From the NCBI GenBank assembly GCA_008080835.1, contig VMDK01000061.1:1-34320 (forward strand): a stretch of DNA of 34,320 nucleotides. Direction: 5' to 3'. Positions 19,997-27,049 of the stretch are shown here, piece after piece. The position numbers and the translations under genes were made by a program. Numbering within the stretch: position 1 is the first letter of the stretch; each line of letters starts with the position of its first letter. The stretch is from Sphingobacteriia bacterium (GTDB taxonomy: Bacteria; Bacteroidota; Bacteroidia; NS11-12g; UBA9320). The notes beneath the pieces are model-generated. The model made no database searches and was not told the origin of the DNA. It saw only the letters and a program-made list of their open reading frames with translations.

Positions 19997-20473
19997 CTAA
20001 TCCCTCATATGTACGTCGCGCTGCGGATAAGGGATCTCTATGTTATTCGCATCGAGCGCTTTCTTGACGTTTTCGAAAGCATTGAACCACACATCCCAAT
20101 AATGCTCAGAGTTACAATGTGGTCGGACGGCTAGGTCGACACTGCTATCGCCTAAACCCATAACACCAACAAAGGGTGGAGAGTCCTTTAATACAAGTTC
20201 ATCCTGCTTCAGAACATCGACATAGCGTGTATCGATGACCAAAACACCATTGGCGGGGACCACAACCTTGTACCATATATCTGAAGAATAGTTGGATGCG
20301 CAGGAGGGACTTGCATCGTTTGACTGCGTTGCGGAGTCATTACTATAGGTTTGGAAGTTGCACGACCCCGTATAGGTCAGTAAGAAGGCATCTTTACAGG
20401 TGTTGTTTGATGGCACCGCATAGATTAGAACGGACAGTGCGACAAAGGTGAAAGAGAGGATTAGGCGCTTCAT
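19997..20473 (-). pseudogene. Chimera: secreted-protein N-terminus fused to MscS C-terminus
   Basis: One open frame joins two unrelated halves. Residues 1 to about 83 from ATG 20473 are a signal peptide (MKRLILSFTFVALSVLIYAV) and the start of a Bacteroidota extracellular domain (NTCKDAFLLTYTGSCNF, SSDIWYKVVVPANGVLVIDT). From about 20224 onward the sequence is the C-terminal domain of a small-conductance mechanosensitive channel: VLKQDELVLKDSPPFVGV, LGDSSVDLAVRP, YWDVWFNAFENVKKALDA and IEIPYPQRDVHM. The channel's membrane pore and Sm-like core are absent, so it cannot be an MscS channel, and the secreted half lacks its body and sorting domain. The simplest reading is a deletion or misjoin fusing the 5' end of one gene to the 3' end of another, by chance in frame. 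Confidence 0.75.
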
Positions 20474-20648
20474 TAAGTCAAAAAATAAACATTTATAAAG
20501 GCGTTTAGCAGTGGTGGCAGAACTCGTTGATCCGGAAAATAAATCTGGACTGATCTTTGTTCTGTACATAGTGCAACAGTGGATGTGAGAGCAGTTTGAC
20601 AATCATTTTCACCAGTTCGATACAAATTGATTTACTTTGAAAAGGATT

Positions 20649-21197
20649 ATGAATTATACAGAATCATTAAGGCGCATTTTGAAAGGCTCAGCTGTCTTTT
20701 CGCTTGTCGCTCTCATGCTTTTGGGACCTTCTGTTGGAAGTGTAACAGGACAAAGTCAGGAGGGTGAACTGGAATGGTATACTCAAGTGGAAAAAGCACA
20801 GGAGTTGTCATTGGCAACAGGTAAGCCCATTTTTGCATTCTTCACAGGAAGCGACTGGTGTGGCTGGTGTCACAAATTGCAACGCGACGTCTTTGCCAAG
20901 CCGGAGTTCATTTCGTGGGCAAAACAGAATGTGATCTTGTTGGAGTTAGATTTCCCTCGCAGAAAAAAACTACCACCTGCCTTGGCGGCTCAGAATAACG
21001 AGTTGAGAGCAGTGTTCAAGGTGACAGGATATCCCACGATCTGGATGTTCAAACTGCACCCGGATGAGCAGACCGGTAAAATGAATATCCAGGCTTTCGG
21101 TTCTTTGGGATACCCAAGCGGTGCGATCAAGGGCAAGGAAGAGGTCAAGTTCCTGGAGACTGCCAATATGATCCTGGCGAATCTGCCTGAGGGTTAA
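20649..21197 (+). CDS. Exported thioredoxin-like protein
   Basis: About 182 residues from ATG 20649 (MNYTESLRRILKGSAVFSLV). An AAAAGG stretch 4 bp upstream serves as ribosome-binding site; the TTG at 20637 overlaps a TACTTTG promoter-like word. A hydrophobic segment (AVFSLVALMLLGPSVGSVTG) suggests export. The thioredoxin fold is marked by FFTGSDWCGWCHKLQ, with active Cys71 and Cys74, and the cis-proline TGYPTIWMF. It resembles the Thioredoxin_7 group of periplasmic reductases. The substrate is unknown. Its neighbours include a di-heme enzyme and an Omp28-type CxxC protein, so a periplasmic redox role is reasonable. Confidence 0.87.
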   Translation: MNYTESLRRILKGSAVFSLVALMLLGPSVGSVTGQSQEGELEWYTQVEKAQELSLATGKPIFAFFTGSDWCGWCHKLQRDVFAKPEFISWAKQNVILLELDFPRRKKLPPALAAQNNELRAVFKVTGYPTIWMFKLHPDEQTGKMNIQAFGSLGYPSGAIKGKEEVKFLETANMILANLPEG

Positions 21198-21239
21198 TAT
21201 TTTACATTTCCCGAATGGGTGGTGTAGTATATTGCGAGC

Positions 21240-23993
21240 ATGATTCGCGCATCACTGATCCTTACATTATTTCTATCTTCTTTAGCAGTCTTTGCGCAAA
21301 CTCCGGAAGTAGCTCAAAGCATCACTCGCAATGCATTCAGTAAGGCATTGGACGAGGGCAATGGCAATTACTACATAGCCTATGACATGAAAGGTGCGTA
21401 TGGCACTGATATCGATTTCGATCGAGACGCCACCCATTTACTTCAGGACAATAATGGTCAGGATTTCTACGTCGTGAAATACGATGTGAACGACAGTATA
21501 CTTTGGACTCTACGCTTGAGAAGTACCACTCTCAGCTTAAGGGACATGTGCTATGACCCCAAAGGAGAATTGGTTTTCAGCATACAATTTGCCGATAGTG
21601 TAGGTATTGGTAGTGACACGTTGATCCGGAGCGCAGGAAGTGAGGCGGCATTGGTGAAACTAGATCCAAAAGATGGTTCCATAAGGTCGTATCATCCTTT
21701 TCGCTCCAAAGGCACCGTGGCATTGGTGAAATTACAGATCGTGAACGGAAACTATCTGATCTGTATGAACGGTTCGGATTCTGTGGACATAGACCTTCGA
21801 ACCTCGAATACCTATCAAATACCCCCAGGAGAACATTCTTTGAAATTAAAACCGGATGGTAGCGTCGTATGGGTTACTCCGGAATTGCCTTTTAGCTATT
21901 CCGAATTTTCCAGTGATACGTCAGGTGGTCTTTATATTAAAACGTATGTGAATGGTGGAAGAACTCGAGTCTTCACTTCACCTGGGAATAAATTGGACAC
22001 GGCGACCAGTAAGGTAGGCTATGCCTATATCCTCTATAAGCGTAATAAGAATGGATTCTTTGAATATGCTAATTTCATTGATGCCGGACAATTGTACCTC
22101 GACAGGTCATCTACTTCGACCAACGGACTGTATTTATCTGGGTTTTCAGACAACTCCGAAGATCATGCTTATGAGTTTCAAAATGGAGACTCTGTGATCT
22201 CTGAGAATGGAGGTTATGGTTCTTTTTTGGCTTACATGCACGCCAACGGAGATATGCTCTGGTACAAGCATTTCGACGACAAGATCTGGGACGTGTTCTA
22301 CAACGTGGGGCACGACAAAGACGATAACGCCTATTGTTCGGGTCGATTTCGAGACACATTAGACGCGGATTGGGGACCCAAGGAATCCTTGATATGGCCT
22401 GCTTCTGTAGTGAACAATGAATTGAATGCATTCGTGGTGAAATACACTCCTGATGCACGTTTTGCAGGAGCATTTGCGATCAGCGACATTCAGCAAAGTG
22501 ATCATTTGTATACGTTGAGCGGTAATAAGATCCTTGTTTCAGGATATAGCCGATTCGGTAAATCTGCAGACTTCGATCCTGGTAAAGGACGGTTTGTAGC
22601 AAACCCCGATAGTACTCCAAACCAAGACTATCTGGCGATCTACTCCTATCCTGATGTCTTGTATGACACCCTTTACAGACAAACATGCAAGAACAAGTTT
22701 GATCTTTATGGAAAGACCTACACCAAAAGCGGAACCTATCTTGATACCCTTGAAGATGGCTTTCGTCCCAGATATCTCACCTTTATCCTGAATATGCTGC
22801 GCCCGAGCTCGGGAAGTATCGACGTATCGGGATGTGACAGTGTTGTCGTGAATGGGATCGTCTACTACACGTCGGGAATCTATAATCAGGATCTCAAGAA
22901 TGACGTAGGATGCGATAGTTCGTTAAGAGTGTTCGCAGAGGTCCATCGATCGACTGATACGGCGATCTATGTGGAGTCATGCGATGGAGTGATGATCGAG
23001 GATACCACTTACGAACGAAGTGGCTCGTACAAGCATTACTACATCTCCTCAGAGGGCTGCGATAGCGTGGTGACTTACCATATTGACATTCTTGATAAGG
23101 ATACCGCAGTGGTTTATGCCGAGAATTGCTCATTCACCCTGGTCAACGGGCAGGTGTATAAAGAAAGCGGCACCTACTACCAACGAGTACCCAGAACCGG
23201 CCAGTGCGATAGTATAGTGGTGGTTGATGTCAAAATATTCGGTAAGGACACGACCAATCGGTATATCGTGGATTGTGAACCCTATGAATACCATGACCAA
23301 ACGTTCGAAAAGAGTGGGACTTATTACGTGCGTCTAGAAAACCAGCACGAATGCGATAGTATCATTAAATTTGAGTTCGCTCTTGAACCCCGAGACACCT
23401 CTGAATTCAGCTATCATTCATGTGGGCCATACTTCTTAAAAGACACGATCTTCGAAACAGAGGGTTATCACTATTTCACCGGAACCGGCAAATGCGACAC
23501 TGTTTTCGCCGTTGATCTGACGATCTCGGAGGTGGACACAGACATTAGCAGGCGTGGAGATACCCTGATCGCTGCTCAGGATTCTGCTGCTTACCAATGG
23601 CGAGATTGCGACCGCGATGATAATATCAGCGGTGCGACTTCCAGAATGTTCAGACCAACGAGTACAGGAAAGTATCAGGTGATCCTTAATTACGGACCAT
23701 GCGCAGATACCTCTGAGTGTTATGTCGTGGACCAGTTGAGAGTAGGAATTCCGAACACCAGTGTTCTGTTCAAGCTTTATCCTAACCCAACGCACGATCT
23801 CATCCAAGTGCATTGCGAGGCCCAGGGAAATAAACGAATTGAAGTCTACACGATAGGAGGGGAATTGGTTAGAACGGGCAATTTTACAGAACATCGGACG
23901 ACCGTAGACCTGACAGATCAAACCGCCGGTGTCTATTTGTTTGTAGCTTCGTTCAATGGTCAATTATTTCGTCAAAGGATCGTGAAGTACTAA
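21240..23993 (+). CDS. Large T9SS-secreted protein with Cys-containing repeats
   Basis: 917 residues with a signal peptide (MIRASLILTLFLSSLAVFAQ). Residues about 20-470 form a beta-rich region with repeated phrases such as FYVVKYDVNDSILWTL and AFVVKYTPDARFAGAF, like SBBP or propeller-type repeats. Residues about 479-765 hold six units of roughly 50 residues, each opening with a Cys, a K/V-NG-x-Y-x-x-SGTY turn and a GCDS or QCDS core. Residues about 780-825 are Ig-like (YQWRDCDRDDNISGAT). The end (LYPNPTHDLIQVH ... GVYLFVASFNGQLFRQRIVKY) is a type A T9SS sorting domain. The protein is probably surface-bound or released; no enzymatic motif is seen. The MbnP-like gene starts 5 bp downstream, so the two are co-transcribed. 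Confidence 0.88.
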   Translation: MIRASLILTLFLSSLAVFAQTPEVAQSITRNAFSKALDEGNGNYYIAYDMKGAYGTDIDFDRDATHLLQDNNGQDFYVVKYDVNDSILWTLRLRSTTLSLRDMCYDPKGELVFSIQFADSVGIGSDTLIRSAGSEAALVKLDPKDGSIRSYHPFRSKGTVALVKLQIVNGNYLICMNGSDSVDIDLRTSNTYQIPPGEHSLKLKPDGSVVWVTPELPFSYSEFSSDTSGGLYIKTYVNGGRTRVFTSPGNKLDTATSKVGYAYILYKRNKNGFFEYANFIDAGQLYLDRSSTSTNGLYLSGFSDNSEDHAYEFQNGDSVISENGGYGSFLAYMHANGDMLWYKHFDDKIWDVFYNVGHDKDDNAYCSGRFRDTLDADWGPKESLIWPASVVNNELNAFVVKYTPDARFAGAFAISDIQQSDHLYTLSGNKILVSGYSRFGKSADFDPGKGRFVANPDSTPNQDYLAIYSYPDVLYDTLYRQTCKNKFDLYGKTYTKSGTYLDTLEDGFRPRYLTFILNMLRPSSGSIDVSGCDSVVVNGIVYYTSGIYNQDLKNDVGCDSSLRVFAEVHRSTDTAIYVESCDGVMIEDTTYERSGSYKHYYISSEGCDSVVTYHIDILDKDTAVVYAENCSFTLVNGQVYKESGTYYQRVPRTGQCDSIVVVDVKIFGKDTTNRYIVDCEPYEYHDQTFEKSGTYYVRLENQHECDSIIKFEFALEPRDTSEFSYHSCGPYFLKDTIFETEGYHYFTGTGKCDTVFAVDLTISEVDTDISRRGDTLIAAQDSAAYQWRDCDRDDNISGATSRMFRPTSTGKYQVILNYGPCADTSECYVVDQLRVGIPNTSVLFKLYPNPTHDLIQVHCEAQGNKRIEVYTIGGELVRTGNFTEHRTTVDLTDQTAGVYLFVASFNGQLFRQRIVKY

Positions 23994-23998
23994 TGTGA

Positions 23999-24988
23999 AT
24001 GAGAAATCTTCTAGTCATTTTGGTATTGATTTTTCTTTCTCAAACTGGATTTGGGCAGGTACGAAGCGTACATTTCAGGATAAATCATTTGGCTAAAGGT
24101 GCTCCGTTATCCTATTCTTTAATCTACCAGAACGATCTCGAACAAGATTATAGATTCACGAGGATCGAGTACTTCATTACCGGATTTGAATTGAGTTCGG
24201 AAACAGGGAGAATGTCGCTGATTGACAGTGTATGTCTCGTTAATGCAGCCAAACCCGCCCAGTATGATCTGGGATCTATTGATCTCGAACGAGTCGACAG
24301 TCTGCATTTTCATTTTGGAGTGGATAAAGAGCGCAACCACGGTGATCCGTCCGTTTATCCATTGGGCCATCCTCTCGCACCGCGCGACAGATACAGCATG
24401 CACTGGGATTGGGCCAGTGGTTACCGTTTCTGGGCAGTAGAAGGGGATGCGGATACGACCGGAGATGGCGAAATGGATGTTTCGTTCCAATACCATATTG
24501 CAATCGATGGTAACTACCTTCCAGCGTCATTGGAAACGATCGTTCAGAATAATGATTCGATCAGCTTTCTCATGGACATTGACTATGTCGACCTCCTGGC
24601 CGGAGTTGACTTTAGAGGAGAACCGGTTGTTCATGGTGGATTTGGTGGCCCGTACGATACTCCGTTGGATTCTATGTTGGTTCGACTGCGCACGAGGTCA
24701 TGCTACAGTTCAGGGTTTCAGCGAGTGCTGAATACGAACTCTGATCTGGACTTGCAACAAACAAGTATGCATCCAAATCCGGCACATGAGAGTCTGCACA
24801 TTGATCACCCTTATCGCATCGAACATATTCAGATCCTGGATGAACTTGGCAGGATGATCAAGGACGTGCTGCCAGCGCCAACCCATGAAGTCAGCATTCA
24901 GCTTGAAGGCTTGAAACCCGGGGTCTATTTTGTGAGGATCACGGATGAAAAAGAGTGCATTTCTACAAAACGATTGATCATCCGCTGA
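23999..24988 (+). CDS. MbnP-like copper-binding family protein with T9SS sorting domain
   Basis: 329 residues with signal peptide MRNLLVILVLIFLSQTGFGQ. The MbnP core is recognisable: FRINHLAKGAPLSY near the front, IEYFITGFEL, LHFHFGVDKERN, then MHWDWASGYRFWAVEGDAD (W136, W138, W145) and VSFQYHIAIDGN. Known MbnP binds copper after a tryptophan is oxidised to kynurenine by the di-heme enzyme MbnH. A C-terminal type A sorting domain (MHPNPAHESLHIDH ... GVYFVRITDEKECISTKRLIIR) sends this one to the cell surface. The next gene, convergent with no gap, is a di-heme MbnH/MauG-like protein, supporting the call. Copper binding and kynurenine formation are inference. Confidence 0.8.
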   Translation: MRNLLVILVLIFLSQTGFGQVRSVHFRINHLAKGAPLSYSLIYQNDLEQDYRFTRIEYFITGFELSSETGRMSLIDSVCLVNAAKPAQYDLGSIDLERVDSLHFHFGVDKERNHGDPSVYPLGHPLAPRDRYSMHWDWASGYRFWAVEGDADTTGDGEMDVSFQYHIAIDGNYLPASLETIVQNNDSISFLMDIDYVDLLAGVDFRGEPVVHGGFGGPYDTPLDSMLVRLRTRSCYSSGFQRVLNTNSDLDLQQTSMHPNPAHESLHIDHPYRIEHIQILDELGRMIKDVLPAPTHEVSIQLEGLKPGVYFVRITDEKECISTKRLIIR

Positions 24989-26035
24989 TCAAGGTTTGTA
25001 GTTCTCGTTAGTTATCGCATCCTGGTCAGTCAGCCTTTTTAGAAAAGCCAGTAGTTGCTCTTGTTCTCTATCGCTCAGCCCTAGCGGTTTCACCAACGGA
25101 CTTTTCTGATGATGCGAAGAACCACCAGAATTATAGTGGTTGATCACTTGTTCAAGGCTCTCGAAGCTTCCGTCATGCATATAAGGAGCAGTCAATTCTA
25201 CATTTCTCAGACTAGGCGTCTTAAACATGGCCAGGTCACTGCTGTCGCCGGTGAGGATGAACCTTCCTACATCTTTATAGACGTCGGTAAGACCGTTATT
25301 CTTGAATTCGTAATTGGTGAAATTGAATCCTGAGTGGCATTCGCTACAGTTGGTCCTGGTTGAGAAGAACAGGTCACGACCGGCAAGTTCATCGCTATTC
25401 AGTCCGGTTCCTGTTCGTTCGTGCTTGTCATACAGAGAATTACCGCTGAGCAGCGTTCGTTGAAAGTTCGACAGGGCTCTGGTGATCACGAAGTAATCCA
25501 TGTCGCGATCGTAGGCATCCCGACTCATTTGCATGTATTCCGGATCCATTGCCATGCGCTCGCCGGCCTGAACGATGTTGAACGCCATTTCGCTGTGCTC
25601 CTGAATGGGAACGAGCACCTGTTGCTCGAGTGTTGGAACTCCTCCTTCGCGCATGAAATAGGGGTGGTATGCCACATTGAACAGAGAAGGAGCGTTTCTC
25701 CGACCTATTCTGCCATCAACACCCGGAGTGACCGGCAAGTCGTCGGCAAAGGCCAGTTGAGGCTCATGACAGGTTCCACAGCTTATGGTGCTGTCGATAG
25801 ATAGCGCAGGCTCAAAGAACAGTCGTTTCCCCAGCTCAAATCGCTCCGTAGTGAAGGCATTGTCTTCCGGGTAGTCGATCTGAGGAAAGCCTTCCGGGAT
25901 CTGTGGAGTAAAGCTGTCGTTCGGAACTGGAGGATCAGGGGTATCGTCAGATGAGCACCCAGCCGAAGACAACACAATAACTCCCAACAGGAGTGAGAGC
26001 ACTTTGAATTGCCATCTGCGGTGTGCTGTGAGCAT
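24989..26035 (-). CDS. Di-heme cytochrome c peroxidase family lipoprotein (MbnH/MauG-like)
   Basis: 348 residues. The N-terminus has a lipobox at Cys27 (VLSSAGCSSDD), so it is an envelope lipoprotein. Two c-type heme sites are visible: CGTCH (86-90) and CSECH (230-234). Family blocks are FELGKRLFFEPALS, NAPSLFNVAYHPYFMREGG, LEQQVLVPIQEHSEM, FKTPSLRNVELTAPYMHDGS and LEQVINHYNSGG. The family includes bacterial CcpA peroxidases, MauG and MbnH. The convergent MbnP-like neighbour favours an MbnH-type role, oxidising a protein tryptophan, over simple H2O2 removal. It begins 24 bp after the Omp28-like gene's stop on the same strand, so they are probably one transcript. Confidence 0.9.
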   Translation of the reverse strand: MLTAHRRWQFKVLSLLLGVIVLSSAGCSSDDTPDPPVPNDSFTPQIPEGFPQIDYPEDNAFTTERFELGKRLFFEPALSIDSTISCGTCHEPQLAFADDLPVTPGVDGRIGRRNAPSLFNVAYHPYFMREGGVPTLEQQVLVPIQEHSEMAFNIVQAGERMAMDPEYMQMSRDAYDRDMDYFVITRALSNFQRTLLSGNSLYDKHERTGTGLNSDELAGRDLFFSTRTNCSECHSGFNFTNYEFKNNGLTDVYKDVGRFILTGDSSDLAMFKTPSLRNVELTAPYMHDGSFESLEQVINHYNSGGSSHHQKSPLVKPLGLSDREQEQLLAFLKRLTDQDAITNENYKP

Positions 26036-26059
26036 GCCGCTAAGTTACATCAGCAAAAT

Positions 26060-27049
26060 TCAATGCAGGATGAGCCTTTGAACTTGTGCACCCATTTCGC
26101 TTTGCAGCACAGCCTGGTAAATGCCTTGAGGAAGATGCTTTACATCAATAGATCCTCCGCCGGTCAAGGACGAAGAGTATACGACTTGTCCTGTCATATC
26201 CCAAAGCTCAAACGTTGCATGCTCAGCAGAATTTTCAACATGGATCGTTTCGTTCGCAGGGTTTGGATAGATGCGCAAGGAAGAGTTGATCGATTGATCA
26301 TCAACAGCCAGAACCACATCGGCTGGCTGATCTTTGGAGGATGCTACTTGCTCAATGAATTTCGTATCGGTATGCTGCACAAATGCCATGACATACATAC
26401 GCTCCTTATTCCACTCTGTATGATGATCCGTGCTGATAATTAAAACTACTGAATCGCCTGTACCGGCCAGGGTCAGAGCATCGATGTGCATCACACGTCG
26501 GAATACATCTTTATGCGTTTTTTCACCATTAGGTGCATCGTAGAACACGGTGTCTTCCACAGCAACTACGAAGAGTTCCATGTCGCCAAACGAATGGTCC
26601 GCATCGGTTCTCACGACGATCCGTGCGCGCAAAGAGTCGGCGCTCCCGGCGGTCTCTTCGACCTTCACGGCGATCGGAGTGCTCTTACCTTCTTCGTCTG
26701 AAAAAAGATCCGAATTGCTATAGTTCGTGCTGATAGACTTAACCTTTCCCTGCACCACAACTCTAGGGGTTCCTCCGTAAATATTGTAGAAGCGGGTACG
26801 TGCATCATTCTCCGTGGTATTGTGTTTGTTCAACACACAACTGGAATAAGGGCTGCTCGGATGATAGGAAATATGCATGATGCTGCGATTGGCAGCGAGG
26901 TTGGTATACAGTCCGGGGTTCCGACTTCCGCAGATACCACATCTCGTATTGGTAAAATGCTCGACAACTACATTGCGGTCGACTTGAGCGCTTAGATCAC
27001 TTCCAATCAGAAGCGCAGTAAGAATAAAGGTTAGTTTTTTGAAGTTCAT
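26060..27049 (-). CDS. Omp28-like CxxC protein with T9SS sorting domain
   Basis: 329 residues with signal peptide MNFKKLTFILTALLIGSDLSAQ. VVVEHFTNTRCGICGSRNPG (C37 and C40) is the Omp28 thioredoxin-like opening, followed by IMHISYHPSSPYSS and GGTPRVVVQGK, where the proline of the cis-Pro loop is kept. A beta-sandwich region follows and the protein ends in a type A sorting domain (IYPNPANETIHVEN ... GIYQAVLQSEMGAQVQRLILH). Omp28-group proteins are surface proteins of Bacteroidota; their redox activity is unproven. It is directly upstream of the di-heme gene (24 bp gap), giving a CxxC protein plus heme enzyme operon facing the MbnP-like gene. Confidence 0.87.
   Translation of the reverse strand: MNFKKLTFILTALLIGSDLSAQVDRNVVVEHFTNTRCGICGSRNPGLYTNLAANRSIMHISYHPSSPYSSCVLNKHNTTENDARTRFYNIYGGTPRVVVQGKVKSISTNYSNSDLFSDEEGKSTPIAVKVEETAGSADSLRARIVVRTDADHSFGDMELFVVAVEDTVFYDAPNGEKTHKDVFRRVMHIDALTLAGTGDSVVLIISTDHHTEWNKERMYVMAFVQHTDTKFIEQVASSKDQPADVVLAVDDQSINSSLRIYPNPANETIHVENSAEHATFELWDMTGQVVYSSSLTGGGSIDVKHLPQGIYQAVLQSEMGAQVQRLILH

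Follow-up and report, generated by a model that had tools for sequence, protein, structure and literature searches.

The window analysed here is a stretch of 34,320 nucleotides from a Sphingobacteriia bacterium (contig VMDK01000061.1). In it, an MbnP-like protein of 329 amino acids (23999..24988, + strand) and a di-heme MbnH/MauG-like protein of 348 amino acids (24989..26035, − strand) are encoded convergently, tail to tail, with the last bases of the two ORFs abutting (0 bp between them). Upstream of the MbnP gene lie a thioredoxin-like ORF with a CGWCHK motif (Thioredoxin_7/DsbH-like, Thioredoxin_7 43.9 bits; 20649..21197, +) and then an ORF for a T9SS-tailed cell-surface (repeat) protein of 917 amino acids, assigned by profile searches (21240..23993, +). 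An Omp28-like CGIC protein with a T9SS tail, also assigned by profile searches, is encoded 24 bp ahead of where the di-heme ORF starts (26060..27049, −), and its Omp28 profile score of 20.9 bits is under the cut-off of 34.9. Our ORF check of the window recovered all named ORFs and distances of positions 20649–27049, and an earlier sequence-only reading of this DNA had described the layout correctly, including the abutting convergent genes, the CGTCH and CSECH motifs, the 24 bp gap, and the thioredoxin-like and repeat-protein genes upstream.

That reading had also grouped the Omp28-like protein with MbnH and MbnP in one possible module and suggested a survey of Bacteroidota for conserved neighbourhoods of the three. 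Linkage of MbnP and MbnH, with T9SS tails, does recur in relatives, but the Omp28 linkage does not. Homologues of the Omp28-like, thioredoxin-like and repeat proteins were absent beside MbnP in about 95 related loci, bar one thioredoxin-like match. Since they are not conserved beside MbnP in relatives, we rejected these proteins as members of the module and treat them as neighbours. In a separate ORF at 19997–20569 (−), a GBD_T9SS_assoc N-terminus runs into the C-terminal domain of MscS; either a deletion fused two genes near 20.25 kb or the assembly has a join there.

The MbnP-like protein and its sorting domain

The MbnP-like ORF carries MHWDWASGYRFW, in which a core with three Trp residues had been noted. 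In a Pfam profile search, the protein scored 88.8 bits for MbnP (PF20243, cut-off 27) and 41.2 bits for Por_Secre_tail (PF18962, cut-off 27); chance is not an issue at the profile scores obtained for the window proteins. It did not reach the TIGR04052 equivalog cut-off (30.6 versus 140 bits) and is thus a Pfam-level MbnP, not a TIGR04052 equivalog. The window MbnP alone gave no PDB match by sequence search. Its AlphaFold model (mean pLDDT 87.5) was compared with the PDB using Foldseek, with 50 matches listed, and chains of 7L6G, the MbnP of Methylosinus trichosporium, took ranks 1–6 (E 4e-9 to 7e-8). The modest TM-scores of 0.42–0.51 mark the window protein as a distant MbnP. The next fold matches, at 1e-4, were unrelated beta proteins, and neither MopE nor CorA appeared by name among the 50 matches listed.

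The T9SS C-terminal domain structures 8glk_D and 8gl8_D matched the tail of the model, where PF18962/TIGR04183 place the sorting domain (residues 258–328; 24770..24982, +), and the model begins with an N-terminal hydrophobic helix. The own genome also carries sprA, a core gene of the T9SS (SprA, 2419 bits). With a sorting domain, a Sec signal and a T9SS in the genome, the protein qualifies as a type A cargo of the T9SS. Both the MbnP-like identity and the T9SS sorting domain proposed earlier were thus borne out.

The residues M134-H135-W136-D137-W138 (24398..24412, +) contain a WxW motif, whose first Trp, W136, is the predicted kynurenine residue; in the profile alignment this MHWDW falls on GMAWNW of 7L6G. 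Across 66 aligned MbnPs, 58 of which bear a curated T9SS tail, W136, W138, G141 and G149 are invariant, and M134, H135, H166 and H212 nearly so. The third Trp of the supposed core, W145, is not conserved, unlike W136 and W138, and we dropped the three-Trp core as a special feature. As an internal control on the chemistry, we compared the motif with the presence of an MbnH within 1.6 kb: WxW is found in 126/126 distinct MbnPs that have such a neighbour, and none of the six MbnPs with WxM has one.

The di-heme protein is MbnH-like

The di-heme protein carries heme-binding motifs CGTCH at residues 86–90 (25766..25780, −) and CSECH at residues 230–234 (25334..25348, −), and its CCP_MauG profile score is 156 bits. 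Its best NCBIfam match is TIGR04039, the MbnH family. The score of 253 bits is under the cut-off of 363, so we file it as MbnH-like and not as a TIGR04039 equivalog; a search with the MbnH profile thus found the family as suggested, at a score below equivalog level. The nearest solved structure both by sequence and by fold is MbnH itself (6E1C; TM 0.83, rmsd 2.0).

Tyr301 (25133..25135, −), at the MauG/MbnH position, is the expected axial ligand of the six-coordinate heme. This column holds Tyr in 186/187 di-heme homologues, the remaining row being a gap, and in 6E1C. Bacterial cytochrome c peroxidases (bCcP) have Met as the axial ligand on the high-potential heme. Glu149 (25589..25591, −), the distal pocket acid, is Glu in 187/187 homologues. 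The axial Tyr and the universal Glu149 make the protein MauG/MbnH-like, and the axial Tyr, the tree and the fold led us to reject a CcpA identity, in line with the MbnH assignment of the sequence-only reading.

The protein is very likely a lipoprotein, judging from the predicted lipidated Cys27 (25955..25957, −), which is kept in at least 90% of the di-heme alignment (A5, n=53). The CSSDD pattern that starts there resembles, at positions +2 to +5, known Bacteroidetes surface-export signals (PMC5080379). Acidic residues at +2 to +5 were not commoner in the di-heme lipoproteins of the window's type (R-type, below) than in the W-type.

An arginine replaces the inter-heme tryptophan

Alignment-based typing put Arg129 of the window enzyme (25649..25651, −) at the column where MauG has W93, its inter-heme Trp. 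We built a tree of 67 proteins, namely 65 di-heme proteins from the family and order plus two references, in which the window protein falls in a 16-member clade with support of 100/99. Within this clade the column is Arg in 14 members, Leu in one and Trp in one, whereas all 49 family di-heme proteins outside it have the Trp. Adding 80 more loci gave 187 di-heme sequences, with 73 Arg, 109 Trp and five other residues (F, F, L, S, T) at this position; W-type is defined by the inter-heme Trp, so that its presence in 109/109 W-type rows holds by definition. In a FastTree run on this set with the trait columns removed, all 73 Arg rows fell within one 79-member clade (support 0.93), which holds a single Trp row. 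More than 20 further conserved positions separate the R-type from the W-type, and the R-type retains both heme motifs, the Tyr, the Glu and mostly the Gln. Depending on the alignment, 6E1C has at this column either the Trp or the neighbour of the Trp.

The R-type keeps to one kind of MbnP. Among the 73 Arg rows, 72 stand beside a T9SS-tailed MbnP; the MbnP next to the remaining one is long, but no tail was detected on it. R-type was found in 0/38 di-heme proteins that lie beside short MbnPs or lack a nearby MbnP. Lipoprotein MbnPs are paired with W-type enzymes only. Because these loci had been collected through MbnP, we repeated the search from the enzyme side. In 108 genomes of the order, a threshold of E <= 1e-69 returned 21 matches. 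A long, T9SS-length MbnP is the neighbour of 19 of them, another adjoins a broken MbnP gene, and the last sits at the edge of a contig. On alignment and phylogeny, then, the window enzyme belongs to a distinct Arg-for-Trp subtype tied to T9SS-tailed MbnPs, which the sequence-only reading had missed. We found no description in the literature of an Arg at the inter-heme place that is fixed in a partner-specific clade. At one locus (G016:C4:33053-35516), an R-type enzyme lies beside MbnP and HYC_CC_PP genes that each appear broken, a case of local locus decay.

The T9SS-tailed MbnP clade and its copper genes

Scanning species genomes yielded 273 stretches that encode proteins related to the T9SS-MbnP clade, and the 80 best of these come from Saprospiraceae, Chitinophagales, Flavobacteriales and others; the T9SS-tailed MbnP is a recurrent Bacteroidota clade. 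In the usual layout, MbnP opens a one-strand operon and two di-heme genes come after it. Enough downstream sequence was available for 79 T9SS-MbnP genes. In 55 of them R-type and W-type genes both follow on the same strand, in eight R-type alone and in six W-type alone. Only the window has an opposed di-heme enzyme; its row in this tally, merged with an identical locus, was listed as an opposed fragment, and separate typing of it gave R. Taibaiella lutea (L162), which its record gives as a strain rather than a MAG, has the whole operon. Three T9SS-tailed MbnP genes share one locus at L139:2390-8930, one of them with YFF for YRF in the motif.

HYC_CC_PP small proteins are encoded in 36/96 loci, mostly on the same strand and within 1 kb upstream, although a genome holds just 0–3 copies (33 genomes checked). 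CusB-type genes occur in 20 of the 96 loci, HMA in 12 and CusA-like genes in 11; CopA (L040) and a T9SS-tailed multicopper oxidase (L039, L049) also lie near MbnP relatives. These neighbours fix a copper theme for the clade, and the copper link of the T9SS-MbnPs is solid. The multicopper oxidase is split at L039:8655-11492 and L049:932-3716, with one part T9SS-tailed, and stands in a row with a T9SS-MbnP and a di-heme gene. A heavy-metal-associated domain is joined to a MauE domain near MbnP genes at L046:14078-14806 and L113:6148-6864. In a limited literature collection, which is no proof of novelty, we found no paper linking MbnP with T9SS, and the one match for MauG and type IX secretion was unrelated.

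The window holds an atypical copy

The own genome encodes two T9SS-MbnPs, one in the window and one on contig C73. The C73 locus has an HYC_CC_PP gene, an MbnP with the canonical PSMHWGW motif and a W-type MbnH, and the window holds the only R-type enzyme of the genome. The window MbnP is among the most diverged of its clade, with a mean identity to the clade of 33% versus 46% among the other members; the clade's G137 is replaced by D within its WxW, and no orthologue above 37% identity was found in the 108 genomes of the order. No copper genes were recognised among the window genes examined. The window thus holds a split and diverged copy of the system, atypical in its convergent genes, its missing W-type partner and its diverged MbnP.

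Proposed mechanism and alternatives

The account we favour, at a probability of roughly 0.6, is that the R-type enzyme drives conversion of Trp136 to kynurenine, creating a single Cu(I) site on a protein that T9SS exports to the surface. For the window MbnP we infer the following order of events. The protein would enter the periplasm by Sec and fold there. The di-heme lipoprotein would use peroxide or oxygen at its five-coordinate heme, hold the oxidising equivalents on its His/Tyr-ligated heme and oxidise Trp136 of the WxW to kynurenine, which would complete the Cu(I) site. T9SS would then export the finished MbnP and anchor it at the surface, where copper could be captured or buffered. In the OB3b MbnP study, a MauG-type enzyme reportedly oxidises the first WxW Trp, and Cu(I) binding requires the kynurenine so formed. 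CorA and MopE offer a chemical precedent for a kynurenine-Cu(I) site (PMC3912023). T9SS cargo is described as transiting the periplasm first (PMC12618676); it would be reachable there by a lipoprotein enzyme, and periplasmic oxidation followed by export is therefore the simplest order. Counting against this mechanism, R129 removes the relay Trp required in MauG, the window MbnP is diverged, no copper gene was seen and the TIGR04039 and TIGR04052 cut-offs were not reached.

Alternatively, the twin di-heme genes may divide the work, the W-type being the Trp-to-kynurenine oxidase and the R-type a helper, either an electron donor or acceptor or a non-catalytic partner. On this view the window pair would be a leftover, or else its R-type enzyme would work for the C73 MbnP alongside the W-type of that locus. 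The presence in the own genome of a single R-type, in the window, and a single W-type, beside a canonical T9SS-MbnP, fits this division, as do the usual placement of both enzymes in one operon, the exclusive use of W-type enzymes by lipoprotein MbnPs and the need of MauG for its inter-heme Trp in cofactor synthesis (PMC6405878). However, the eight loci with R-type alone and the six with W-type alone beside a T9SS-MbnP indicate that neither type strictly depends on the other, the retained heme motifs and pocket residues argue for an active R-type enzyme, and bis-Fe(IV) forms in BthA without the Trp (PMC6405878). We consider such a division of labour unlikely.

A more far-reaching idea, which we hold only tentatively and think improbable, is that the R-type represents a new catalytic subtype within the MauG superfamily, one that works without the inter-heme Trp and arose along with T9SS export. 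With the W-type, it would make a double or different MbnP modification, for example of both Trp residues of WxW. The result would be a metal or redox site at the surface unseen in known MbnP, MopE and CorA.

Decay of the window pair, with the function carried by the C73 locus, would account for the split orientation, the lack of a W-type partner, the diverged MbnP and the lack of visible copper neighbours. Yet both ORFs are intact and keep the clade-invariant motif residues, and the R-type enzyme has diverged no further than its relatives have (57% mean identity to the clade versus 60%), so a remnant seems quite doubtful. An ordinary cytochrome c peroxidase that scavenges peroxide and adjoins MbnP by chance is a very improbable identity for the di-heme protein, and largely refuted: the fold and heme motifs are shared and bCcPs are the second-best sequence matches, but the axial ligand is Tyr and not Met, MbnH is the best match by sequence and fold, and the enzyme-centred search tied the enzyme to long MbnPs.

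Comparison with known systems

The closest known system is MbnP/MbnH of OB3b (7L6G, 6E1C; TIGR04052/TIGR04039, GenProp0940), which shares with the window pair the fold of both proteins, the gene pairing, the axial Tyr and a WxW with Met two residues before its first Trp. The window pair differs in the T9SS tail of MbnP, in the R-type enzyme without the inter-heme Trp, in scores below both TIGRFAM cut-offs and in the lack of recognised methanobactin genes; its relatives often have two di-heme genes. MauG shares the axial Tyr and the distal pocket Glu and Gln and oxidises a Trp of its partner protein, but it keeps W93 and its partner is methylamine dehydrogenase. BthA, a Burkholderia di-heme enzyme (6NX0), is a more distant fold match (TM 0.69) with a His/Tyr-ligated heme and likewise no inter-heme Trp. 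It has Ser257 at that place yet reaches the bis-Fe(IV) state, while in MauG the Trp is required (PMC6405878); the window enzyme has Arg and is linked to a T9SS-exported MbnP.

In methanotrophs, MopE/SACCP and CorA/CorB each comprise a kynurenine-Cu(I) protein, located on the surface or secreted, and a di-heme protein transcribed with it, an arrangement that the window pair may parallel (PMC3912023, PMC3621798). In sequence, MopE and CorA show no marked similarity to MbnP (PMC3621798), and unlike the window MbnP they are not T9SS cargo. CorA sits on the cell surface, MopE is found both bound to the surface and secreted, and SACCP, the di-heme protein, is itself surface-located (PMC3912023, PMC3621798), so the sequence-only reading, whose interpretation is partly supported overall, overstated how unusual a surface location would be. 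Surface kynurenine-copper chemistry is already known in methanotrophs; what is new here is the T9SS export and the R-type partner.

If the favoured account is true, protein-bound kynurenine copper sites would be common on the outer surface of Bacteroidota (Saprospiraceae, Chitinophagales, Flavobacteriales) and no speciality of methanotrophs. Linked di-heme oxidases with and without the inter-heme Trp would then form a natural pair acting on the same target, a test of the purpose of that Trp that the whole operon of T. lutea makes practical. The own genome also encodes a third MbnP, on contig C60 (L058:7723-8472), with WxM for WxW and no MbnH nearby. Five relatives likewise have WxM and no MbnH, several of them beside a similar conserved gene, and the WxM MbnPs are possibly a branch that does without the modification.
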